A DNA stretch of 64,000 nucleotides from Lacrimispora sphenoides JCM 1415 (GTDB taxonomy: Bacteria > Bacillota > Clostridia > Lachnospirales > Lachnospiraceae): positions 558,001 to 622,000 of the forward strand of contig NZ_LT630003.1 of assembly GCF_900105615.1 (NCBI RefSeq), in the 5' to 3' direction. Below are positions 1,480 through 12,374 of this stretch, piece after piece. A program made the translations under genes and the position numbers. A model generated the notes under the pieces. The model was not told the origin of the DNA and did no database searches. It worked only from the letters and a program-made list of their open reading frames with translations. Within the stretch, counting starts at the first letter, position 1; each line of letters opens with the position of its first letter.

Positions 1480-1508
1480 TTGAATTTTAAAAATGCAAAT
1501 GCTATAAT
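1480..1508 (+). promoter_or_regulatory. sigma-A promoter for the liv-pxp operon
   Basis: TTGAAT at 1480-1485 and a perfect TATAAT at 1503-1508 with a 17-base spacer. The predicted transcription start is near 1515, leaving a leader of about 215 nt before the first gene at 1731. Confidence 0.75.
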
Positions 1509-1514
1509 CCAACC

Positions 1515-1730
1515 AATATATGAAACGAGAGAACAAAGGGGTCTCAAGCGTACACAGTACGGTTGCGGCTCCTTTTGCTTTTGGATATTTGCCATGCATG
1601 TGATCAAATGTTCTAAGGCAAAAAAGTCTCTTAAGGAGAACAAGGAGGTTTTCCCTGCATTTTGAGGGAAGCCTCCTTGTTCCGTCTTTATTTTCGTTTT
1701 GTATGATAATAGATTGAGGAGGAAACGATT
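1515..1730 (+). promoter_or_regulatory. structured 5' leader with attenuator, unknown class
   Basis: This untranslated leader lies between the promoter and the substrate-binding protein gene. CAAAGGGG (1534-1541) can pair with CTCCTTTTG (1569-1577), enclosing an inner GTAC-ACA-GTAC hairpin (1550-1560). CTCCTT (1569-1574) is also complementary to AAGGAG within the 5' arm of the downstream terminator (1638-1682), so two exclusive folds are possible, as in a transcription attenuator. I do not see T-box AGGGTGG, ykkC, glutamine, glycine, lysine or SAM motifs. Calling it a riboswitch is inference. Confidence 0.5.
1638..1700 (+). terminator. intrinsic terminator inside the leader (attenuator candidate)
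   Basis: GAACAAGGAGG plus TTTTCCCT pairs with AGGGAAGCCTCCTTGTTC (1638-1682), giving a long stem with one mismatch/bulge, followed by the T-rich CGTCTTTATTTTCG. It sits 31-48 bases before the livJ start and downstream of the operon's own promoter. It therefore probably controls read-through rather than simply ending the PTS operon. Confidence 0.75.
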
Positions 1731-2963
1731 ATGAAAAAAAGATTATTACCCGTAACTCTTATTACAGCAGTGACGGCAGCGCTTCTTGCCGGCTGCGGCT
1801 CATCTGCACAGCAAAGTGCTGCAGGAGGCAGTACAGCCGCTGCAAGTTCAGCGGCTTCCCAGGATAGAGAGTCTTCCCCTGAAGGCGGAGACGGGAAAAC
1901 CGTTAAGATCGGCGTTTACGGTCCTGTCACAGGGGGGTCTGCTGTTTATGGGGAAGGCGCGCAGAATGCCATTAACATGGCGGTTGAAGAAATCAACGAC
2001 GGAGATTCCGGTTACAAGATTGAAATTGTAAATGGCGGAAAAATAGTAGATGACGGCGGTGATGCCAAACAGGCAATTAATGCTTATAACAGCTTGATGA
2101 AGGAAAGTCCCGATGCCATCGTCGGAAGTTTTTTTTCGTCTGTCACCCTTCCCGTTGCCGAACAGGCCTCCAAAGACAATATGCTCCTTCTTGCAACAGG
2201 TGCTACCAATAAAGACGTGACCTTAAAAGGTCCCACCATTTTCAGGAATTGTTTTATTGACCCGTATCAGGGTAAAATGGCTGCTCAGTTTGCAAAGGAA
2301 AAAGGCTGGACAAAAGCTGCCATTATCTATGCCAAGGATGATGATTATTCCAACGGCTTAAAGGATGCATTCATTGAGAATGCCGAGGCAAACGGAATTG
2401 AAGTGGTATATGTAGGGGAATGCACCACAAAGGATACAGATTTTTCATCCCAGACTTCCCAGGTAGTAGCAAAAGGAGCAGACTTCCTGTTTTATCCCGC
2501 ATTCCTTGATACGGTTCCCCTTCTGATAGGCGCGGCAAGGGATGCAGGCTTTGATGGAGCCGTCATGGGAGGCGATGGCTGGGATGGAACTGATACGGCA
2601 GGATTTGAAGAAAAATTTGAGAACTGCTATTTTACCAACCACTATTCTTCGGAAGATACTGCCCCGGCCGTAGTCAATTTCGTATCCAAATATACGGAAA
2701 AGTACGGTACGGAAAGCTTAAATGCCTGTGCGGCTCTTTACTATGATGCCATTTACATGCTGGTGGAAGCTGCCAAAAACAGCGGTTCATCCGATACGGT
2801 TTCCCTGATAAATGGGATGACGGGAATGACTTTTACAGGTGTGGGAGGAACCTTTACCATGGATGCAAACGGAGATCCGGAGAAATCCGTGGCGATCAAT
2901 ACCTTTGAAAACGGCAAGGTAAAATGGCTTATGACTCTTTCACCGGAAGGAGCAAAGGAATAA
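1731..2963 (+). CDS. livJ: ABC transporter substrate-binding lipoprotein, Liv/amino-acid type
   Basis: Extracellular solute receptor of a branched-chain-amino-acid-type (Peripla_BP_6) transporter. The signal peptide ends in a lipobox LLAGC with the lipid-anchored Cys22, followed by a low-complexity Ser/Ala linker to about residue 55. The mature fold then begins with VKIGVYGPVTGG, the usual first strand of LivJ-like receptors. At 410 aa it is normal in length once the linker is counted. Start ATG is preceded by GAGGAGG. It is the first gene of a twelve-gene operon. Liv-type receptors bind diverse amino acids, amides and urea. The neighbours argue for D-glutamate, 5-oxoproline or short glutamyl compounds rather than leucine, which is inference. 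Confidence 0.9.
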   Translation: MKKRLLPVTLITAVTAALLAGCGSSAQQSAAGGSTAAASSAASQDRESSPEGGDGKTVKIGVYGPVTGGSAVYGEGAQNAINMAVEEINDGDSGYKIEIVNGGKIVDDGGDAKQAINAYNSLMKESPDAIVGSFFSSVTLPVAEQASKDNMLLLATGATNKDVTLKGPTIFRNCFIDPYQGKMAAQFAKEKGWTKAAIIYAKDDDYSNGLKDAFIENAEANGIEVVYVGECTTKDTDFSSQTSQVVAKGADFLFYPAFLDTVPLLIGAARDAGFDGAVMGGDGWDGTDTAGFEEKFENCYFTNHYSSEDTAPAVVNFVSKYTEKYGTESLNACAALYYDAIYMLVEAAKNSGSSDTVSLINGMTGMTFTGVGGTFTMDANGDPEKSVAINTFENGKVKWLMTLSPEGAKE

Positions 2964-2967
2964 AACT

Positions 2968-3858
2968 ATGACATTTTCATTATTCTTTCAAAGCCTGATA
3001 AACGGACTGAACCAGGGTGCTATCTATGCTTTGATAGCACTTGGTTATACCATGGTGTACGGAATCATCCGTATGATTAACTTTGCCCATGGAGATTTTA
3101 TCATGATTGGAGCCTATACCTTATTTTATACAATTCCTTTCATGATCCATGCAGGAATGCCTGCATGGATTTCCGTTTTCCTTGCCGTGGTCATCTGCGG
3201 GTTGGTGGGAGTCATGGTAGAGGTGGTAGCCTATAAACCGATCCGCAAGGCAGGTTCCATGTCAGCCCTTATTACAGCACTGGCTATGAGTCTGTTTCTG
3301 GAAAATCTGGCCATGGTTCTCTTTGGAGCCAAGCCCCATAATGTCCAGAAGATATTTGATTTACCCTCTGTAAACGTGCATGGAGTGACTCTTCCACTGA
3401 ACGTTATTTTAACCATCAGTATCGGAGTGGTTATGATGGCGGGCCTTCAGATATTTATAAAGAATACCAAGATGGGAAAAGCCATGCGGGCAGTTCCCCA
3501 GGACCGTGATGCTTCCATACTTGCAGGAATCAATGTCAATAAAGTGATCACTATGACCTTTGCCATCGGTTCCGCGCTGGCAGCAGTCGCAGCCCTTATG
3601 TACTGCGCCAAATATCCCCGTGTCACCAACGATATGGGGGCCATGATGGGACTTAAGGCTTTTATTGCCGCTGTTCTTGGCGGGATCGGAGTCATCCCCG
3701 GAGCCATGCTCGGAGGAATCCTTGTTGGCTTGATTGAGATTTATGTTAAGCTTTTTGCACCAGGCTGGTATGAAGCGATTACTTATGCCATTCTGATTGT
3801 GATTCTTTTGGTGAAACCGTCCGGCATTCTTGGCAAGAATGTGGGCGAGAAAGTTTAA
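2968..3858 (+). CDS. livH: Liv-type ABC transporter permease, LivH subfamily
   Basis: Integral membrane subunit (296 aa) that with LivM forms the translocation pore. It begins with the family's typical QSLINGLNQGAIYALIALGY and YGIIRMINFAHGDFIMIGAY stretches. It carries the cytoplasmic coupling region around QDRDASILAGINVNKV near residue 180, followed by GGIGVIPGAMLGGILVGL. About eight hydrophobic segments are visible. It starts four bases after livJ, so the two are probably translationally coupled. Substrate specificity cannot be read from this subunit. Confidence 0.92.
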   Translation: MTFSLFFQSLINGLNQGAIYALIALGYTMVYGIIRMINFAHGDFIMIGAYTLFYTIPFMIHAGMPAWISVFLAVVICGLVGVMVEVVAYKPIRKAGSMSALITALAMSLFLENLAMVLFGAKPHNVQKIFDLPSVNVHGVTLPLNVILTISIGVVMMAGLQIFIKNTKMGKAMRAVPQDRDASILAGINVNKVITMTFAIGSALAAVAALMYCAKYPRVTNDMGAMMGLKAFIAAVLGGIGVIPGAMLGGILVGLIEIYVKLFAPGWYEAITYAILIVILLVKPSGILGKNVGEKV

Positions 3859-3869
3859 GGGGGTAACCC

Positions 3870-4886
3870 ATGGAAAAACGGTTTAAAGTTTCCTATTTCC
3901 TTAATTTCCTTGGTGTTCTTGCAGTTTTTTTCCTGTTTGTCCTGCTTTTTGAAAACAATGCTTTTGGCAAGTCCACCCTATATATCAAGGGGATCAGTAC
4001 CACTGCATGTTATACGGTCATTATGGTGGCTTCCTTAAATCTGGTAGTGGGCTGCATGGGGGAATTTTCCCTTGGCCATGCCGGTTTTGTATCAGTAGGG
4101 GCATATGTTTCGGCTATTGTATCCAATGGACTTGCCGGAAAGGGACTGCCGGATATCGCCTTATTCCTGGTTGCTCTCCTTGTTGGAGGAATTGCTGCCG
4201 GCATGACTGGAATCCTGGTGGGAATACCGGCTCTCCGCTTAAGAGGAGATTATCTTGCCATTGTGACCATTGCTTTTGCAGAGATTATCCGGGTTCTATT
4301 CTGCAATCTTTCTATAACTGGCGGCGGAAAAACCATGAGCGGCATTTTAAAGCTTTCCAATTTCTACTGGAGCTTCTGGATCATGGTAATCTGCCTTACT
4401 GTCATGTACATGTACGTGCGCAGCCGCTATGGCAGAGCGGTGAAAGCCATTCGGGAAGATTACATAGCGGCATCTGCCTCAGGAATCAATGTTACTTATT
4501 ATAAAGTGCTTACTTTTACCGTAGCCGCTTTCTTTGCAGGAATCGGCGGGGGTGTTTATGCCCATTACATGACGGCCATGATTCCAACCAACTTTAACTT
4601 CATGTACTCAGCGGAACTTCTCTCAGAGGTAATCATCGGAGGAAGCGGCTCCATTACCGGCTCTATTATCGGAGCGGCTTTTCTTTCTTCCCTCCCGGAG
4701 ATGATGCGCCAGTTCTCCCAGTACCGGATGCTGGCATATTCTGTAGTACTGGTACTGGTTATGATTTTTAAACCGGGCGGTATCTTTGGAACATGGGAGT
4801 TTTCTCTCATTCGTGTATGTGAACGGCTGACAGGCAGAAAAGGCGGTTGGGAAAAGAACCGGAAAAAAACAGAAGGAGGTGTATAA
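3870..4886 (+). CDS. livM: Liv-type ABC transporter permease, LivM subfamily
   Basis: Second pore subunit (338 aa). Typical LivM features are NLVVGCMGEFSLGHAGFVSVG near residue 60, GIPALRLRGDYLAIVTIAF near residue 118 and GGSGSITGSIIGAAFLSSLP near residue 255. The C-terminus is basic and cytoplasmic. A good GGGGG-type ribosome site precedes the ATG. The gene ends two bases before the ATPase gene livG begins, consistent with one transcript. Confidence 0.92.
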   Translation: MEKRFKVSYFLNFLGVLAVFFLFVLLFENNAFGKSTLYIKGISTTACYTVIMVASLNLVVGCMGEFSLGHAGFVSVGAYVSAIVSNGLAGKGLPDIALFLVALLVGGIAAGMTGILVGIPALRLRGDYLAIVTIAFAEIIRVLFCNLSITGGGKTMSGILKLSNFYWSFWIMVICLTVMYMYVRSRYGRAVKAIREDYIAASASGINVTYYKVLTFTVAAFFAGIGGGVYAHYMTAMIPTNFNFMYSAELLSEVIIGGSGSITGSIIGAAFLSSLPEMMRQFSQYRMLAYSVVLVLVMIFKPGGIFGTWEFSLIRVCERLTGRKGGWEKNRKKTEGGV

Positions 4887-4888
4887 AT

Positions 4889-5695
4889 ATGACAGGAGCA
4901 GAAGGTACCATGCCGGTATTAAAGGCACAGAACCTGGGAATCCAGTTCGGCGGATTAAAAGCGGTGGACAGCTTTAATATGGAAATCGGAGAATCGGAGC
5001 TGGTAGGGCTGATCGGTCCAAACGGTGCTGGAAAAACTACAGTATTCAATCTGATCACCGGTGTTTATAAACCGACGGAAGGATCCTTTTACTTAAATGG
5101 CCAGTCTATGAATGGGAAAAAGACTCATCAGATTGTCGAAGCAGGAATTGCAAGAACATTCCAGAATATCCGGTTATTTAAGAAAATGACCGTAATCGAT
5201 AATGTAAAGGCAGCCATGAGCGCCAAGCTTTCCTACAATCTGTTCCATGCTGTTTTTCGTACGCCGTCCTACTGGAAGCAGGAAGAAGAACTGAAAAGAA
5301 GAGCCGGGGAACTGCTTAAGATCGTGCATTTAAATGGAAAAGAAGATTATGAAGCAGGAAATCTGCCCTATGGAGAGCAGAGGCGCCTGGAGATAGCAAG
5401 AGCCCTGGCTACGGATATGAAGCTCCTTCTTCTTGATGAACCTGCGGCAGGGATGAACCCGACAGAAACGGAAGAGCTCCTGGAGATTATCAACTATATC
5501 CGCGATGAATTTAAGATCTCCGTGCTTCTAATCGAGCATGATATGAGCCTGGTCATGAAAATCTGCGAACGGATTTCTGTCCTGGATTTCGGTACTACCA
5601 TTGCCTCCGGGACCCCGGAGGAGATTGCCAATCATCCAAAGGTCATTGAAGCCTATCTGGGAAAAGACGATGAGGAGGTAGAGAAAGATGCTTAA
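4889..5695 (+). CDS. livG: Liv-type ABC transporter ATP-binding protein LivG
   Basis: One of two cytoplasmic ATPases (268 aa) that power the transporter. Walker A GPNGAGKTT is at residues 43-51, the signature is PYGEQRRLEIARAL (the YGEQ variant usual in LivG), and Walker B is LLLLDEPAAGMNP, followed by the switch histidine in LIEHDM. The ATG at 4889 was chosen because AGAAGGAGG lies eight bases upstream. The frame extends further upstream to a TTG, but that lacks a ribosome site and overlaps livM. The 3' end overlaps livF by eight bases. Confidence 0.93.
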   Translation: MTGAEGTMPVLKAQNLGIQFGGLKAVDSFNMEIGESELVGLIGPNGAGKTTVFNLITGVYKPTEGSFYLNGQSMNGKKTHQIVEAGIARTFQNIRLFKKMTVIDNVKAAMSAKLSYNLFHAVFRTPSYWKQEEELKRRAGELLKIVHLNGKEDYEAGNLPYGEQRRLEIARALATDMKLLLLDEPAAGMNPTETEELLEIINYIRDEFKISVLLIEHDMSLVMKICERISVLDFGTTIASGTPEEIANHPKVIEAYLGKDDEEVEKDA

Positions 5696-6386
5696 GGTAA
5701 AGGATCTGGCAGTGTCTTACGGAGCCATTGAAGCCATTCATGGGGCATCCCTGGAAGTTCATGATGGAGAAATCGTTTCCCTGATCGGAGCCAATGGAGC
5801 GGGAAAAACCACTATTTTAAGAACTATTTCAGGGCTAAAAAAAGCTGATAAGGGAGAGATACTCTTTGACGGAGCCGATTTGTTAAAAACAGAACCCAGC
5901 AAGATCATCAATTTAAAACTGGCACATGTACCGGAAGGACGGCATATTTTCCCTCAGATGACTGTAGAGGAGAATCTGGAAATGGGGGCATTTACCGATG
6001 GAAAAGACATGGCGGCCAATATGGCAGACGTATTTGTACGTTTTTCCCGTTTAAAAGAACGGAAAAAACAGCTGGCAGGAACCTTGTCCGGCGGTGAACA
6101 GCAGATGCTAGCCGTAGGCCGGGCCCTTATGGCAAAACCTAAGATGATCCTGATGGATGAACCGTCTATGGGACTGTCTCCATTGTTGGTAAAAGAAATA
6201 TTTTCTATTATCAGAGAATTAAACAAAAAGGGGATCACCATGTTACTGGTAGAACAGAATGCAAAAATGGCCTTATCCGTATCAAACAGAGCCTATGTAA
6301 TGGAGACGGGAAAAATTATTATTGAAGGAAGTGCCGGAGATCTGCTAAAGGATGACAGGGTAAAGAAAGCATATCTTGGACAATAG
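5688..6386 (+). CDS. livF: Liv-type ABC transporter ATP-binding protein LivF
   Basis: Second ATPase subunit (232 aa, the usual LivF size). Walker A GANGAGKTT is at about residues 34-42, the signature is LSGGEQQMLAVGRAL, and Walker B is MILMDEPSMGLSP with the following LVEQNA. It overlaps the end of livG by eight bases and carries its ribosome site (GAGGTAGAG) inside livG, indicating translational coupling. With livJHMG it makes a complete importer. Confidence 0.93.
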   Translation: MLKVKDLAVSYGAIEAIHGASLEVHDGEIVSLIGANGAGKTTILRTISGLKKADKGEILFDGADLLKTEPSKIINLKLAHVPEGRHIFPQMTVEENLEMGAFTDGKDMAANMADVFVRFSRLKERKKQLAGTLSGGEQQMLAVGRALMAKPKMILMDEPSMGLSPLLVKEIFSIIRELNKKGITMLLVEQNAKMALSVSNRAYVMETGKIIIEGSAGDLLKDDRVKKAYLGQ

Positions 6387-6398
6387 GAGGATACGATT

Positions 6399-7061
6399 AT
6401 GGATGAGAATAAGAATTATTTTGCCATTGCCATCACTCGTACCTGCGGAAGCGGAGGAGGAAGCTACATCGGTAAAAAACTGGCGGCTGATTACGGGATC
6501 GATCTGTATGACAGAAAGCTTTTGCGTCTGGCATCAGAAGACAGCGGAATCAATGAGGCGATATTTGCAAATGCAGATGAAAATACGAAAAAAACTTTTT
6601 TATACCGTGCCTCAAGAAGAGTCTACAGCGGCGAAGTCATTCCTAAGGAAAGCGGCAATTTTTTATCGGATCAGAACCTTTTTAATTATCAGGCCAAGAT
6701 TTTGCAGGAGCTTCTACATCATGAATCCTACGTCTGCATCGGCCGGGCAGCGGATTTTATCTTAAAGGATGAGCCCAATGTAGTATCCGTGTATCTGGAT
6801 GCCCCCTATGGATTCCGCTTAAAAAGAGAGATGGAGCGGCAGGGAATATCCGAACAGGAGGCTGCAAAGTATATAGACAAACTGGATAAATACAGGAATT
6901 CCTATTATATGTACCATACCGGAAGGCAGTGGAAGAACCCTGAAAATTATGACCTTTGCCTGAACACGGAAAGTCTGGGGCTGGATCATTGCGTGGAATT
7001 AATTAAGAAATTTGTAGAGTTAAAATTTGGGATTTGTTCCAGTGAAAAGGAGATATTATGA
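6399..7061 (+). CDS. cytidylate kinase-like family protein
   Basis: A 220-residue protein of the cytidylate-kinase-like group (Pfam Cytidylate_kinase2 type). ITRTCGSGGGSYIGKKLA at about residues 12-29 resembles the P-loop region of this family, but it lacks the classical GxxxxGK[ST] spacing. CIGRAADFIL (about 113) and the later YLDAPYGFRLKREMER segment also fit. The true substrate is not known for these proteins, so CMP kinase activity should not be assumed. It lies 12 bases after livF and its stop overlaps the next start (ATGA), so it belongs to the operon. Its role beside amino-acid genes is unexplained. Confidence 0.75.
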   Translation: MDENKNYFAIAITRTCGSGGGSYIGKKLAADYGIDLYDRKLLRLASEDSGINEAIFANADENTKKTFLYRASRRVYSGEVIPKESGNFLSDQNLFNYQAKILQELLHHESYVCIGRAADFILKDEPNVVSVYLDAPYGFRLKREMERQGISEQEAAKYIDKLDKYRNSYYMYHTGRQWKNPENYDLCLNTESLGLDHCVELIKKFVELKFGICSSEKEIL

Positions 7062-7915
7062 AAGAGCTTGCTTATTATGATGGAAGGATCGGAGCCCCTG
7101 AGGAATTGATGGTTCCCTTTCAGGACCGGGTTCATTTTTTTGGAGATGGAGTTTATGATGCTACCGTTGGAGGAAATCATAAAGTGTATCTTCTGGAGGA
7201 TCATCTGGACCGTTTTTACTCCAGTGCCAAAGCTCTGGATATTAAGATTCCCATGGATAAGAAGGAGCTTGGAGAACTTCTGACCAAACTTCTTTCCATG
7301 GTGGAGGGGAATACTCATTTTGTGTACTGGCAGGTGACAAGAGGGACGGCTCCCAGGGATCATGCTTATGACGAGGCAATGCTTGGAAAGCTGTGGGTCA
7401 TGATAAGGCCAAATAAACTAAAAGACCCTGATGTTCCCATCCGCCTGATAACAATGGAAGATACCAGGTTTTTTTACTGCAATATTAAGACATTAAATCT
7501 TCTCCCGTCTGTGCTTGCCTCTCAGGAGGCTTTAAAAGCTGGAGCAATGGAAACTGTTTTACACAGAGGAGATACGGTGACGGAGTGCGCCCACAGCAAT
7601 GTTTCTATTTTAAAAAACGGAACCTTCCTTTCCCATCCCAATGATAACCTGATCCTTCGGGGGATTGCAAAGACCCATATGATTCAGGCCTGCTACAGGC
7701 TTGGAATCCAGGTACTGGAGCGGGCATTTACCATGGAAGAGCTTATGGATGCCGATGAGGTCATCGTGACTTCTTCTTCTAATTTTTGCCTTCATGCAGA
7801 CGTTATTGACGGAAAGCCTGTAGGTGGAAAGGATCCGGCGACGTTAAAGAAGATTCAGGAAGCTGTTTTGGAAGAATACTTAGAGTATACAGGAAGAGAT
7901 AGTATATTTGATTAG
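7058..7915 (+). CDS. class IV aminotransferase, D-amino-acid aminotransferase-like
   Basis: Fold-type IV PLP enzyme (285 aa) of the D-alanine/D-amino-acid and branched-chain aminotransferase family. The catalytic lysine is K144 in CNIKTLNLLP, and the PLP-binding glutamate is E176 in DTVTECAHSNVSIL. FFGDGVYDAT at residues 28-36 is the family's N-terminal signature, and VTSSSNFCLHAD near 230 binds phosphate. Overlap of four bases with the previous gene. In this operon it probably interconverts D-glutamate and 2-oxoglutarate with pyruvate/D-alanine, a function known for DAAT. 4-amino-4-deoxychorismate lyase or BCAT activity cannot be excluded. Confidence 0.82.
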   Translation: MKELAYYDGRIGAPEELMVPFQDRVHFFGDGVYDATVGGNHKVYLLEDHLDRFYSSAKALDIKIPMDKKELGELLTKLLSMVEGNTHFVYWQVTRGTAPRDHAYDEAMLGKLWVMIRPNKLKDPDVPIRLITMEDTRFFYCNIKTLNLLPSVLASQEALKAGAMETVLHRGDTVTECAHSNVSILKNGTFLSHPNDNLILRGIAKTHMIQACYRLGIQVLERAFTMEELMDADEVIVTSSSNFCLHADVIDGKPVGGKDPATLKKIQEAVLEEYLEYTGRDSIFD

Positions 7916-7921
7916 GAGTGG

Positions 7922-9013
7922 ATGATGGATAGAGGCGGACTGGAAAAGAGAAATGTGGGAGAAAACCTGGATGCTCTGATGAATTTAGATCCCAGGGGCT
8001 ATGGGGTATGCCGGATTCTTTATGCCGGGAGCCGGGAGCAGATGGGGGAGCCTCTTACCATGAGAGCGGCGGAAATGCTGTGTGAAACGGTGAAAGAAGA
8101 TGATCTGGTTTATATACTGACAGGTTTTGTGCTTCTGCCTCATAAGAAGCCGGAGATGGATGGAATGGTCAGTTCCATGCTGCTGGCAAGAGCACTAGTC
8201 ATGGCTTTTGGGGCAAAACCTGTTATCATCTGCCCTGAGGACTGTGTGAAGTCGGTAGTGAAATGTGCCTGCGTGGTAGGCCTTCATATTTACCAGGATA
8301 TAGGGACCGTAAGGGAACTTCCTCTCAGCATGGGAGTGATAGCCTTTACAAAAAATCCGGCCAGGGCAGAAATCGAAGCGGAATGGCTGATAAAAGAAGG
8401 GCTTCCCGGAGCGGTAATCTCTGTGGAGGCTCCCGGTTCCAATGAAAATGGTGTTTATCACAATTCAGCCGGAGACAATGTAACAGAGCTGGAAGCCAAG
8501 ACAGATATACTATGGGAAATGCTTCGGAAAAAGGGTGTCCTAAACATAGCCATCGGTGATCTTGGCAATGAGATCGGCATGGGAGCCATAGCAGATCATA
8601 TTAAAAAATACATACCTTTAACGGCTCCCGGGGAATGTGTATGCGGCTGCGGAGGCGGAATTCTGGCGGCCAGCCGGGCGGACCATGTGATAACGGCAAC
8701 CTGTTCTGACTGGGGCTGCTACGGTTTGATCGCGGCACTGGCTTACTTAAAGCGGGATATGGAGATTCTTCACCGGGAAGAAATGGAAGCGGAACTGATG
8801 AGAGCGGCGTCAAGAACCGGTCTTATTGATATGACCGGTTCACTGATCCCTGGAATCGATGGATTTAGTACCCGGCTGAATACAGGAATTGTCAGCCTGA
8901 TGCGCCAGTGTACGGCTTATGCAGTCCGATATTCCCATAATTCCGATCACTGGTTTCGTTCTGTGCTGGAAAAAGGATTTTTTGAAGAAGGGGATGGGCC
9001 ATGGTTCAAATAA
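7922..9013 (+). CDS. DUF4392 protein, homologue of D-glutamate cyclase C-terminal domain
   Basis: A 363-aa soluble protein matching the DUF4392 family, which forms the C-terminal half of mammalian mitochondrial D-glutamate cyclase (DGLUCY; D-glutamate to 5-oxo-D-proline). Recognisable pieces are IAIGDLGNEIGMGAI near residue 205, the cysteine-rich ECVCGCGGGILAAS near 238 and VITATCSDWGCYG near 258. Two adjacent ATGs (7922, 7925) follow GAGGAGTG; either could be used. It overlaps pxpB by 13 bases. Together with the DUF1445 protein at 10750 it supplies both halves of the eukaryotic enzyme as separate genes. The D-glutamate cyclase role is inference from the fusion and the context. Confidence 0.8.
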   Translation: MMDRGGLEKRNVGENLDALMNLDPRGYGVCRILYAGSREQMGEPLTMRAAEMLCETVKEDDLVYILTGFVLLPHKKPEMDGMVSSMLLARALVMAFGAKPVIICPEDCVKSVVKCACVVGLHIYQDIGTVRELPLSMGVIAFTKNPARAEIEAEWLIKEGLPGAVISVEAPGSNENGVYHNSAGDNVTELEAKTDILWEMLRKKGVLNIAIGDLGNEIGMGAIADHIKKYIPLTAPGECVCGCGGGILAASRADHVITATCSDWGCYGLIAALAYLKRDMEILHREEMEAELMRAASRTGLIDMTGSLIPGIDGFSTRLNTGIVSLMRQCTAYAVRYSHNSDHWFRSVLEKGFFEEGDGPWFK

Positions 9014-9690
9014 AACCGGTCGGTGACTGCGGCGCCCTGGTGGAATTGGGTGATTCCATCAGTGAGGAGGTAAATGCGAAGGTAATGGAATTAAACCGGA
9101 AGATCCATGAGCTTCCGGTGGAAGGGATTCTTGAGACAGTACCTGCCTTTTGTTCTGTTCTCGTTTGTTATGACCCTTTGAAAACAGATTATGATACGGT
9201 ATTAAAGGTTCTTTCTCTACTGTCAGAATCATTGGAAGGCAAAACAGGGATAAGAGGGAGGCTGGTGGAAATTCCGGTCTGCTACGGAGGCAGCTACGGA
9301 CCGGATCTTTCCTTTGTAGCAGAGCATGGAAAGATCACGGAGGACGAGGTGATCCGGATTCACAGCAGCAGGGATTACCGTATTTATATGCAGGGATTTC
9401 TTCCGGGCTTTCCCTATCTTGGAGGAATGGATGAACGCATTTTCACTCCCCGGTTAAGCTCGCCCAGAACCAGGATTCCGGCGGGGAGTGTAGGAATCGG
9501 AGGAGAGCAGACAGGAATTTATCCCATGGACTCTCCAGGAGGCTGGCAGTTGATCGGACGTACGCCTTACTGTCTTTTTAAGCCGGAGCAGGTGGGAAAA
9601 CCTCTTTATGAAGCCGGTGATTCCATTCGTTTTGTGCCTATCAGCCAGGAAGAATATAAAGAAATAAAAAGAAAACAGGAAAAGGGGTGA
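9001..9690 (+). CDS. pxpB: 5-oxoprolinase subunit PxpB (KipI-like)
   Basis: Subunit B of ATP-dependent 5-oxoprolinase (229 aa), which with PxpC and PxpA opens 5-oxoproline to glutamate. It shows DCGALVELGDSISEEVN at the N-terminus and the strongly conserved GFLPGFPYLGGMDERI at about residues 131-146. RTRIPAGSVGIGG and YPMDSPGGWQLIGRTP follow. The same family contains KipI, an inhibitor of sporulation kinase A in Bacillus, but the neighbouring pxpC and pxpA make the enzyme role far more likely. It overlaps the preceding gene, implying coupled translation. Confidence 0.92.
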   Translation: MVQIKPVGDCGALVELGDSISEEVNAKVMELNRKIHELPVEGILETVPAFCSVLVCYDPLKTDYDTVLKVLSLLSESLEGKTGIRGRLVEIPVCYGGSYGPDLSFVAEHGKITEDEVIRIHSSRDYRIYMQGFLPGFPYLGGMDERIFTPRLSSPRTRIPAGSVGIGGEQTGIYPMDSPGGWQLIGRTPYCLFKPEQVGKPLYEAGDSIRFVPISQEEYKEIKRKQEKG

Positions 9691-9694
9691 CGGG

Positions 9695-10723
9695 ATGGGA
9701 TTTGAAATCTTGCGTCCTGGAGCCTTGTCCACGGTTCAGGATAAAGGGAGAAGAGGATTTTTAAGCCAGGGCATCCAGGAAAGCGGTGCCTGTGACAAGT
9801 ATTCCATGAAGCTTGCCAATCTTCTTGCCGGGAATCTGGAAGAACCGGAAACAGCGGCAGTTATCGAATTTACGTTAAAAGGCGGTGAGATCCGTTTTAA
9901 CTCTGACGAGATCATCGCCTTTGCAGGCGGGGATATGAAACCCTGTATCAATGGATTCCCGGTTCCCATCTTCTCTCCGATTCTGGTAAGGACAGAAGAT
10001 ATTCTGACCATGGAGCTTGCGGCTTCCGGCCTTCGGACTTACATGGCGGTCTATGGAGGAGTAAAGGTTCCTTCTGTCATGGGAAGCCGTTCCACCAATT
10101 TAAAATGCCGCATTGGTGGCTTAGAGGGAAGGGCACTCCTTGAAGGGGATCGACTGAAGTCAGGAAAAGATCTCAGACAGTTTAAGAAAATAAGAAAGAA
10201 ATTAAAAGGGAATGAAAAGCTGGCAGCCGTGGGAGAGAATGAACCATGGCTGCGTCATTCGTCAACACCTTACCGCTTTTATGGAGATGACCGTATGGTT
10301 CTTCTGCGTGCCGTAATGGGCCCCCAGGAAAATGCTTTTACGGAACTGGGACTTAACACTCTGATACGGAACCCTTTCCGGTTAAGCATGGACTGCGACC
10401 GCATGGCCTGCAAACTGGAGGGCGAACCCATTGAAATGAAAAATGGAGCAGATATCATATCTGATGGAATCGTAGAAGGCTCAGTTCAGATCTCATCTTC
10501 TGGACTTCCTATGGTTTTGATGGCAGATCATCAAACTACCGGAGGATATGCAAAAATCGCTACGGTGATCAGCACGGATATCCCTGCACTGGCCCAGCGA
10601 AAGCCGGGGGAGTGGGTGGCATTTCAGTATGTAACTCCAGGTGAAGCCGTGGCAATCTGCCGGAAGGAAGAAGATAAGCTGAGGAATTTTAAGGAACGGC
10701 TTAGGAATATCATTTACGGGTAA
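9695..10723 (+). CDS. pxpC: 5-oxoprolinase subunit PxpC (biotin-dependent carboxyltransferase/KipA family)
   Basis: Subunit C of 5-oxoprolinase (342 aa, normal length). The N-terminus GFEILRPGALSTVQDKGR and the following SQGIQESGACDKYSMKLAN are diagnostic of the PxpC/KipA family, which is related to the C-terminal part of urea amidolyase. The later VEGSVQISSSGLPMVLMADH and QTTGGYAKIATV blocks are also present. Four bases separate it from pxpB. In many genomes pxpB, pxpC and pxpA are adjacent; here a DUF1445 gene is inserted before pxpA. Confidence 0.92.
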   Translation: MGFEILRPGALSTVQDKGRRGFLSQGIQESGACDKYSMKLANLLAGNLEEPETAAVIEFTLKGGEIRFNSDEIIAFAGGDMKPCINGFPVPIFSPILVRTEDILTMELAASGLRTYMAVYGGVKVPSVMGSRSTNLKCRIGGLEGRALLEGDRLKSGKDLRQFKKIRKKLKGNEKLAAVGENEPWLRHSSTPYRFYGDDRMVLLRAVMGPQENAFTELGLNTLIRNPFRLSMDCDRMACKLEGEPIEMKNGADIISDGIVEGSVQISSSGLPMVLMADHQTTGGYAKIATVISTDIPALAQRKPGEWVAFQYVTPGEAVAICRKEEDKLRNFKERLRNIIYG

Positions 10724-10749
10724 ATAGACCATAAGACAGGAAAGAAGGA

Positions 10750-11565
10750 ATGAACATGGAACCAGAGTATAGACACAGAGAACCCAAAGAAGTCCGCCGG
10801 CTGATCAGGGAGGGGGTGATCCACAGCCCTACCACCGGAATGTGCGGCGGCTATGCCCAGGGAAATCTGGTGATCCTTCCCGAAGAGCTGGCCTGGGATT
10901 TTCTTTTGTTCTGCCAGAGAAATCCCAAGGCCTGCCCGCTCCTGGAAGTATCGGATGCAGGGAGCAGGAGTTTTCCCCTGACGGCAGAAGGAAGTGATAT
11001 TCCAAGGGATATTCCCAGATACCGGGTGTATGAATACGGCGCGTGCACCGGTGAATACACAGATGTATCAGAACTATTTGAGGAGTATCAAAGAACCAGG
11101 GGAAAGCTGGTAAGCTTTCTTATTGGCTGCAGTTTTTCTTTTGAAACAGCACTTTTGGAGGCCGGGATACCGGTGAGACAGATTGAGGAGGGGGTAAATG
11201 TTCCTATGTTCCATACGAACATTCCCTGTACGTCCGCAGGAATATTTTCAGGTAATATGGTGGTAAGCATGAGGCCCATTCCTCATCATCAGGTTTCCTA
11301 TGCGGTTGTAATTACTGCTTCCATGCCAAAGGTGCATGGGGCACCTGTTCACATCGGTTATCCGGAAGCTCTTGGAATAAAAGATATCAGCAAACCGGAT
11401 TTTGGGGATCCGGTGACCATAAATAATGGAGAGGTGCCTGTTTTCTGGCCCTGCGGGGTAACTCCCCAGGCAGTGGTCATGAACAGCAGGCCCCCCTTTG
11501 TAATTACTCACGCTCCGGGACACATGTTTATTACGGATTTAAAAAATGCAGAATTAAAGAATTAG
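10750..11565 (+). CDS. DUF1445 protein (YcsI-like), homologue of D-glutamate cyclase N-terminal domain
   Basis: A 271-aa protein of the DUF1445 family, often listed as putative hydro-lyase (B. subtilis YcsI). Clear family blocks are [17 protein letters not shown] (about residues 29-45), [12 protein letters not shown] (about 58-69), [19 protein letters not shown] (about 120-138) and [18 protein letters not shown]. The family corresponds to the N-terminal part of mammalian D-glutamate cyclase, whose C-terminal part is represented by the gene at 7922. It sits between pxpC and pxpA, 26 bases after the former. Probable role: D-glutamate / 5-oxo-D-proline interconversion or 5-oxoproline stereochemistry, not demonstrated here. 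Confidence 0.88.
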
Positions 11566-11575
11566 AGGTGAGAGT

Positions 11576-12325
11576 ATGCCGGTCATTGACTTAAACTGCG
11601 ATCTGGGGGAAAGCTTCGGCGCTTATAAAATAGGACTGGATGAAGAGGTGCTGCCCTATGTTACATCGGCAAACATTGCCTGCGGCTTTCATGGGGGAGA
11701 TCCTGTGGTAATGGAACAGACGGTGGCTTTATGTAAGAGATATGGAGTGAGGGCAGGGGCCCATCCGGGTTTCCCTGATCTGGCGGGATTTGGAAGAAGA
11801 AATATGAGCCTTACTCCCAATGAAGTAAAAACCAGTGTTATGTATCAGATCGGGGCATTGAACTCTTTTTGCAGAGGAGCCGGAATCAGGCTCTGTCATG
11901 TAAAACCCCATGGGGCCTTGTACAACATGGCGGCAAACGATTATGAACTGGCAAAAGCCATATGCCAGGCGATAAAAGAAGTGGATGGCAGCCTGGTTCT
12001 CCTGGCTCTCAGCAATAGTGAGATGCTTCGGGCGGCCAAGGATACAGGAGTGTCTGCTGCCAGTGAGGTATTTGCAGACCGGGCCTATGAAAGAGATGGA
12101 AGCCTGGTTCCAAGAAGCCGGAGAGGCGCGGTGATTGAAGATGAGGAACTGGCATTAAAGCGGGTAATCCGAATGGCGAAAGAAGGGGTGGTGGAAGCCA
12201 TTGACGGAAGCACGGTTTCCATTGATGCGGATTCTGTATGTGTTCATGGAGATGGAGGGAAGGCTCTGGAATTTGTAAAGAGGCTAAGAAAAGGATTTTC
12301 AGAAGCAGGAATAGAGGTAAAATGA
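11576..12325 (+). CDS. pxpA: 5-oxoprolinase subunit PxpA (LamB/YcsF family)
   Basis: Subunit A of 5-oxoprolinase (249 aa), a TIM-barrel protein of the LamB/YcsF family. The N-terminus [17 protein letters not shown], then [30 protein letters not shown] and [15 protein letters not shown] are all family hallmarks with the metal/substrate His and Asp residues. It lies 10 bases after the DUF1445 gene and is the last gene of the operon; a terminator follows at 12342. With PxpB and PxpC it completes ATP-dependent 5-oxoproline hydrolysis to L-glutamate. Confidence 0.94.
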
Positions 12326-12341
12326 TTTTAACGGCCAAACC

Positions 12342-12374
12342 AAAGGCGTGGCATGGAACTGTCATGCCTTTTTT
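12342..12374 (+). terminator. terminator of the liv-pxp operon
   Basis: GGCATG (12350-12355) pairs with CATGCC (12363-12368), extended by AAAGGC/GCCTTT possibilities, and is followed by six T's. It lies 17 bases after the pxpA stop. Confidence 0.8.

Follow-up and report, generated by a model that had tools for sequence, protein, structure and literature searches.

A recurring gene cassette for putative salvage of D-glutamate and 5-oxoproline behind a Liv-type importer and a tandem-hairpin leader in Lacrimispora sphenoides

The window analysed here is a 64,000-nucleotide stretch of Lacrimispora sphenoides JCM 1415 (contig NZ_LT630003.1, positions 558,001 to 622,000; positions below count from its first letter), whose genome of 5.30 Mb lies on a single contig and holds one DUF4392 gene. 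Between positions 1731 and 12325 its forward strand carries livK-H-M-G-F, a cytidylate-kinase-like gene, an aminotransferase gene (DAAT), DUF4392, pxpB, pxpC, DUF1445 and pxpA, followed by a terminator, with gene spacings of -13 to +26 bases. Every gene that a preliminary description of this DNA had named was found by open reading frames, Pfam and NCBIfam, on one strand and where it had been placed. Its gene list was right except that it had missed the cytidylate-kinase-like gene (6399-7061), and the structured leader ahead of livK had gone unnoticed. The enzyme set forms a widely conserved cassette, whereas the preceding importer is optional. Judged from its genes and leader, we lean, with little more than even confidence, towards reading the operon as a nitrogen-regulated unit for the salvage of D-glutamate and both enantiomers of 5-oxoproline. 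The features are as follows.

1480..1508, + strand: promoter-like TTGAAT-17-TATAAT with TG before the second hexamer (10/12 matches)
1529..1545, + strand: leader hairpin P1, hexaloop AAAGGG on GAGAAC/GTCTC with one bulged A (by eye)
1537..1582, + strand: terminator-like hairpin T1 with U-rich tail, exclusive with P1
1633..1694, + strand: intrinsic terminator T2, exclusive with P2
1635..1654, + strand: leader hairpin P2, GGAGAAC-AAGGAG-GTTTTCC, with a hexaloop and an invariant stem
1731..2963, + strand: livK, substrate-binding lipoprotein (PF13458 above the Pfam cut-off)
2968..3858, + strand: livH permease (NCBIfam Liv model match below cut-off)
3870..4886, + strand: livM permease (NCBIfam Liv model match below cut-off)
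4889..5695, + strand: livG ATPase (by reading and synteny; ATG at 4889, the open reading frame list starting upstream at TTG 4847)
5688..6386, + strand: livF ATPase (by reading and synteny)
6399..7061, + strand: cytidylate-kinase-like protein (PF13189), beside livF, with a 4-base overlap with the aminotransferase start
7058..7915, + strand: putative D-amino-acid aminotransferase, class IV (PF01063; alignment to 3daa)
7922..9013, + strand: DUF4392 / GLUCM-like_C, long branch (PF14336, 281.6 bits, cut-off 27.9)
9001..9690, + strand: pxpB (PF02682; NCBIfam PxpB above cut-off)
9695..10723, + strand: pxpC (PF02626; TIGR00724 passed)
10750..11565, + strand: DUF1445 / D-Glu_cyclase, YcsI family (PF07286; PRK05463 above cut-off)
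11576..12325, + strand: pxpA (PF03746; two NCBIfam PxpA subfamily models above cut-off)
12342..12371, + strand: operon terminator

The Pfam run covered the operon proteins except livH, livM, livG and livF. The parts of a Liv/HAAT importer are complete (a binding protein, two permeases and two ATPases, the ATPases by reading), and livK, livH and livM matched NCBIfam Liv models, all under their cut-offs. PxpA, PxpB and PxpC are all encoded in the one operon by Pfam and NCBIfam, with PxpC below the NF045499 equivalog cut-off of NCBIfam (224 vs 500 bits).

The cassette was followed beyond the genus by scanning one genome per species with two DUF4392 peptide patterns. This gave 151 confirmed relatives, of which the best 80 were analysed: 12 loci of the genus and 68 from elsewhere. 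Most of the latter bear Clostridia labels; two carry Negativicutes-type labels and one is labelled Treponema. Sampling by patterns of the window's DUF4392 favours near kin, and loci cut off too early by a contig end are left out of the denominators. In loci outside the genus, the gene directly upstream of DUF4392 is the aminotransferase in 54 of the 61 whose upstream sequence exceeds 1.1 kb (a looser 58/65 adds four short contigs that were counted because the gene was found), and the next 6 kb downstream hold all of pxpA, pxpB, pxpC and DUF1445 in 46/52. Both arrangements hold in 11/11 genus loci. A same-strand Liv set stands upstream in 10/10 genus loci vs 11/38 outside, where two more have a divergent set and 25 have no Liv set upstream on either strand. 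Since Liv is found in a minority of the outside loci, the importer is an add-on and not part of the conserved core. The dedicated scavenging importer of the preliminary description thus fits some lineages only, and the gene-neighbourhood survey that it had proposed finds DUF4392, DUF1445 and PxpABC mostly together, with Liv beside them in a minority of the outside loci.

The core is rearranged between lineages. The order aminotransferase-DUF4392-pxpB-pxpC-DUF1445-pxpA occurs under Lachnospiraceae, Oscillospiraceae and Christensenellaceae labels, and most Clostridium loci have aminotransferase-DUF4392-DUF1445-pxpA-(alr)-pxpB-pxpC. An alanine racemase gene (PF01168, PF00842) is present on the same strand in 23/52 loci outside the genus, at two positions; a search limited to the window, with the rest of the genome not searched, found none there. 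An Lrp/AsnC-containing cluster was seen in 13 loci, mostly just upstream. In five Clostridium loci (L201, L205, L208, L212, L225) pxpC is followed by biotin-carrier and biotin-carboxylase genes, hinting at a biotin-linked form of the carboxyltransferase-like pair. Outside the genus the kinase-like gene adjoins livF, including where the Clostridium Liv genes are divergent; the Treponema Liv set lacks it. In three Clostridium loci a second Liv clade, distant from the first, lies divergently beside the cassette. Independent origins of the Liv sets were considered and set aside: the Clostridium and Treponema binding proteins form separate long branches, and one origin fits the tree too, which itself calls for caution over its long branches. 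Two Clostridium cassettes that lack Liv encode similar multi-spanning proteins after pxpC (L204:15958-17391 and L212:15975-17420), a possible alternative transporter.

Within the genus (25 genomes, own included), a DUF4392 match was found in 20/25, that of G012 being a 47-residue fragment only. A near-complete operon in the same order is present in 18/25, own included, of which G019 has it split over two contigs and G005 has livK on a separate contig; G023 carries a copy broken by several frameshifts. With the cassette recurring in other genera as well, the operon is more than a chance arrangement. The kinase-like gene is missing in G001, G022 and G024 and matches as two pieces in G008. pxpC is present in exactly those 19/25 genomes that hold DUF4392 beyond a mere fragment, and the remaining six lack it. 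Among these six, G010 retains the leader, kinase-like gene and aminotransferase; G018 and G020 retain the same and pxpA; and G012 keeps a remnant of leader, inserted element, livM fragment, aminotransferase and DUF4392 fragment. Searches of G002 and G013 gave neither an aminotransferase match nor a strong match to the leader. In G018 and G020 the kinase-like gene is preceded by the leader, second hairpin included, and in G020 the bases 5' of that gene read by eye as the end of livF, so these genomes look like losses and not like an older state. The Liv genes are gone wherever pxpC is gone: Liv, DUF4392 and pxpC were lost together in the genus. Two local rearrangements were also seen. In G001 livG, livF and the aminotransferase are doubled in tandem beside the operon (L029, L079), and in G012 the element that separates the leader from the operon remnant (L077 2370-3160) is presumably an IS200-like transposase, by eye.

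Ahead of livK, a structured leader of about 185 nt (~1513-1696) folds far better than shuffles (z -8.17). It is strongly conserved in an alignment of 17 leaders (the window and 16 genus loci), in all of which the TATAAT box at 1503-1508 is kept and the P1 loop reads RANGRR. T1 has three base pairs with changes on both sides; all seven pairs of P2 are invariant, so covariation is uninformative there. From its predicted pairing the leader reads as two attenuators in a row, P1 over T1 and P2 over T2, and it may be new in this arrangement. A model of the first hairpin gave a strong match in 23/25 genus genomes and 0/36 other relatives, with weak matches (E 0.06-0.09) in G002, G013 and G050.

Leaders of other genera differ in sequence, and many repeat such hexaloops. 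A scan of 16 Liv leaders covered the window and 15 of the 16 outside-genus loci with same-strand Liv (L178, on a contig without livK, was excluded; L200 supplied only 108 bases; three divergent Clostridium Liv sets and L221 lay outside the scan). AANGRR hexaloops on at least 3 bp were found in 10/16, whereas 500 shuffled sets averaged 1.57 and never exceeded 5; given near-copy leaders (L181, L182, L185, L186, L197; L189, L190), the matches amount to about five independent groups, and the strict scan misses P1 because of its bulge. The loose pattern, with A at position 1 and G at 4, was found in 13/16, a count reached by 7/500 shuffled sets. Upstream of livK in L187 (Herbinix), two near-identical tandem hairpin units were seen, with a hexaloop that by eye lacks G at position 4.

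P2 has the form of an ANTAR target: its short stem overlaps a terminator and carries a hexaloop whose positions 1 and 4 are A and G. In the published eut element, the sequence AGCAANGRRGCUY overlaps the 5' arm of the terminator, and predicted ANTAR targets have been reported mostly upstream of nitrogen genes (PMC3369931). Exactly one ANTAR protein is encoded in each of the 25 genus genomes, including G002 and G013, which lack the leader. In the genome studied here its gene directly follows glnA (glutamine synthetase), 23 kb past the window end.

That the leader is instead an unlisted riboswitch, or an attenuator bound by some other protein, is a minority possibility that deserves serious weight. 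P1 and P2 are separated by 89 nt in the window and by 64-94 nt across the 17 leaders, outside the 5-12 nt reported for eut hexaloop linkers (PMC3369931, PMC8934654); in one clade the first loop position is G; each hairpin has a terminator of its own; and Rfam gave no family at gathering score, with three chance-level matches at a relaxed threshold. The spacing, the G and the paired terminators misfit the eut model. The spacing and the G count against the ANTAR part of the salvage reading, as do the 6/16 Liv leaders without a strict AANGRR hexaloop, 3 of them without the loose form as well, and the first-hairpin model, which at E<0.01 finds 10/12 genus loci but only 2/68 others. In favour of an ANTAR target, AANGRR loops on short stems recur in otherwise different leaders, as in the published eut element, and each genus genome has its one ANTAR protein, though the leaderless two have it as well.

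The ligand of the importer bears on a second account. LivK residues S136, T159 and D282 fall at the places of S79, T102 and E226 of the leucine-binding protein, which we take to be main-chain anchors and, for the last, the acid at the ammonium site. The anchor residues and this acid argue for a free amino acid as the LivK ligand rather than 5-oxoproline, and the closest solved relatives are labelled branched-chain receptors. Such a receptor would suit an internal clean-up, in which the cassette repairs the 5-oxoproline that glutamate and glutamine form spontaneously and removes stray D-glutamate released by cell-wall turnover, with Liv a separate amino-acid system sharing the promoter. The 25/38 outside loci without Liv are consistent with this, as is the finding that no membrane-protein cluster recurs in at least four pxp-bearing loci without Liv; a MATE-like cluster recurs in five loci without pxp. 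Clean-up alone is nevertheless judged unlikely. The joint disappearance of Liv and pxpC in the genus and the distant Liv clade beside the cassette in Clostridium both speak for a functional tie, and the same genome holds four further full-length LivK paralogues (27-34% identity).

The two DUF genes were surveyed in a sample of 398 genomes of the phylum. DUF4392 was found in 39 (including G280, whose match is below the family cut-off), DUF1445 in 62 and pxpC in 116. DUF4392 and DUF1445 co-occur in 29/39 DUF4392 genomes (Fisher odds ratio 28.6, ignoring kinship) and lie within 6 kb of each other in 16; DUF1445 shares 61/62 genomes with pxpC and lies within 6 kb of it in 47. This agrees with the D-glutamate/5-oxoproline chemistry that had been named as the common theme. 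DUF1445 occurs without DUF4392 in 33 genomes and DUF4392 without DUF1445 in 10, and the two are therefore not obligate halves. A tree of 46 DUF4392 proteins has a strongly supported split (100/100) between a branch of mostly ~295 residues, with TON_0340, and one of mostly ~350 residues, with the window protein; the human DGLUCY domain was not among the sequences placed. The preliminary phrase "both halves of D-glutamate cyclase" holds in that both domains are present in a shared cassette, and is too literal given the separate branch and the unpaired genomes. The metal ligands E78, D80, E169, D213, E217 and D313 match the six metal-binding acids reported for TON_0340 (PMC5132392) and are invariant in 46/46. 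TON_0340-branch proteins also stand inside an aminotransferase-pxp-DUF1445 cassette in G387, G419, G305 and G350, at positions that differ from the window. Two deep branches in the same cassette slot are the best evidence here for one job, and this supports a shared function of both. The window's DUF4392 and DUF1445 proteins are a probable D-glutamate cyclase. A candidate DUF1445-DUF4392 fusion in G233 was rejected: the open frame has 589 residues, but the chosen reading frame has 428, and DUF1445 lies elsewhere. Long-branch DUF4392 genes were also seen outside the cassette (L127, L128, L131), near NMT1_3 and DctM transporter genes and a gamma-glutamyltranspeptidase gene.

The long-branch DUF4392 protein might instead be another Mn-dependent enzyme and no part of a cyclase, either a phosphatase or a 5-oxoproline racemase that lets PxpABC use the D form. 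The deep split from TON_0340 and the low phosphatase activity reported for that protein (PMC5132392) favour this. A T. lienii relative has also been annotated as an Asp/Glu/hydantoin racemase (PMC5339696), and a racemase would connect D-glutamate to PxpABC directly. We regard such a role as improbable: TON_0340-branch members fill the same slot, all six metal ligands are kept, and DGLUCY yields a D product, with no racemase step in the part of that work consulted. That amino-acid genes merely came to share a promoter by chance is very improbable and already disfavoured by the survey: many relatives do lack Liv and the kinase-like gene, yet the enzyme core turns up, in rearranged orders, under Lachnospiraceae, Oscillospiraceae, Christensenellaceae and Clostridium labels.

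The aminotransferase passes no NCBIfam cut-off (best TIGR01121, 215.7 vs 277.45 bits). Its residues Y33, R100, H102, K144 and E176 align with Y31, R98, H100, K145 and E177 of 3daa; by that alignment K144 is presumably the pyridoxal phosphate lysine, Y33, R100 and H102 the carboxylate trap and E176 the catalytic Glu. The conserved residues suggest that the enzyme is D-specific, and the earlier label of a DAAT-like enzyme stands despite the missed cut-off. A match is present in 23/25 genus genomes. Replacement of glutamate racemase was rejected as a general reason for the gene, MurI being above cut-off in 24/25 genus genomes. G020, a genome listed as 100% complete, has only weak glutamate racemase matches and retains the aminotransferase.

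Returning to the salvage reading, the steps may be pictured as follows. ATP-dependent opening of 5-oxo-L-proline is established for the PxpABC family, and the operon's PxpABC would open it to L-glutamate with ATP spent. For the D form, the metal site of the cyclase step would lie in DUF4392. The aminotransferase would drain D-glutamate to 2-oxoglutarate while making D-alanine, which the operon-borne alanine racemase of many relatives would return to L-alanine; this pull could drive 5-oxo-D-proline to D-glutamate. Both enantiomers would thereby end as L-glutamate or 2-oxoglutarate. The Liv-type importer would have been added in some lineages, probably for an amino acid. Transcription would start near 1515 and be halted at one or two leader terminators unless the hexaloop hairpins form, held most likely by the ANTAR protein encoded beside glutamine synthetase, which would lift the terminators according to nitrogen state. 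Taken whole, the proposal is tentative and on balance doubtful: that one pathway uses both enantiomers, the L form through PxpABC and the D form through an ATP-free DUF1445/DUF4392 step to D-glutamate, pulled by D-aminotransferase and alanine racemase, with either DUF4392 branch, and, where Liv is added, with ANTAR-held tandem attenuators tied to glutamine synthetase, a pathway undescribed in bacteria.

Beside the leader features given above, several findings weigh against this reading. DGLUCY forms 5-oxo-D-proline, whose plasma level was reported as ten times that of D-glutamate after loading (PMC5339696), so that the hydrolysis direction would need a strong pull. TON_0340, of the DUF4392 family, is described as a weak Mn-dependent phosphatase (PMC5132392). 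The aminotransferase is not a constant partner: L192, L198 and L222 have DUF4392, pxp and DUF1445 without it; G195 and G242 have long-branch DUF4392, pxp and DUF1445 with none on the stretch read; L191, L194, L195 and L230 have DUF4392 with neither aminotransferase nor pxp set; and most of the 40 DUF4392 stretches read in the phylum sample lack it. In G010 and G012 it has outlasted the rest of the set and so has another use. G018 and G020 retain pxpA although pxpC is gone. The kinase-like gene is not accounted for by this reading, and since it outlives Liv loss in three genus genomes, its tie is not only to the importer.

The name of DUF1445 was taken over from the mammalian enzyme, and a recurring cassette makes the function of DUF4392 and DUF1445 directly assayable. 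The cassette could account for the fate in Clostridia of D-glutamate that stems from cell walls or poly-gamma-glutamate, and the operon adds a new leader RNA for which a candidate regulator can be named. Just upstream of it, at 40-1241 of the window, genes that by eye encode a fructose-type phosphotransferase system EIIC and EIIB come to an end; their content is unrelated.

Among the matches listed in a search of open-licence literature (titles and abstract starts), no paper on the aminotransferase-DUF4392-pxp-DUF1445 cassette was found, and the open-licence literature searched gave no physiological role for a bacterial DUF4392. Several known systems resemble parts of the operon. YcsI of Bacillus subtilis is taken here to be a DUF1445 protein, and in the B. 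subtilis control PF07286 was matched and DUF4392 was not found. Like the window, the B. subtilis ycsFGI-kipIA operon (pxpA, NRAMP gene, DUF1445, pxpB, pxpC) has pxpABC and ycsI in one operon; it differs in its NRAMP-type YcsG transporter in place of Liv and in its regulation, and the part of the source consulted names no aminotransferase (PMC10448178). In Corynebacterium glutamicum, pxpTABC likewise joins 5-oxoprolinase to an uptake gene of its own and was shown to allow growth on 5-oxo-L-proline; unlike the window it has the secondary transporter PxpT and a GntR regulator, and the term "D-glutamate" does not occur in the main text (PMC13274462). EutV-type ANTAR antitermination shares a hairpin that overlaps a terminator 5' arm and whose hexaloop has A (or R) in position 1 and G in position 4; the window differs in having two hairpins separated by 89 nt, each with a terminator to itself, and no eut genes. 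A split DGLUCY in gut microbes, with separate genes as in the window, has been listed for GLUCM_HUMAN (0 full-length and 6 split homologues); it forms one table row, and the consulted part of the report describes no operon or pathway (PMC12547972). TON_0340 was reported to be 36% identical to the human DGLUCY domain (PMC5132392), and the window protein lies on the other branch. Mammalian DGLUCY (C14orf159) itself combines DUF1445 and DUF4392, as the window does, and converts D-glutamate to 5-oxo-D-proline (PMC5339696); it is one fused mitochondrial protein, in contrast to the separate genes at 7922 and 10750. The pairing of these domains, the union of pxpABC with ycsI and growth via pxpTABC were thus already known, and what may be new is the combination found in the cassette.

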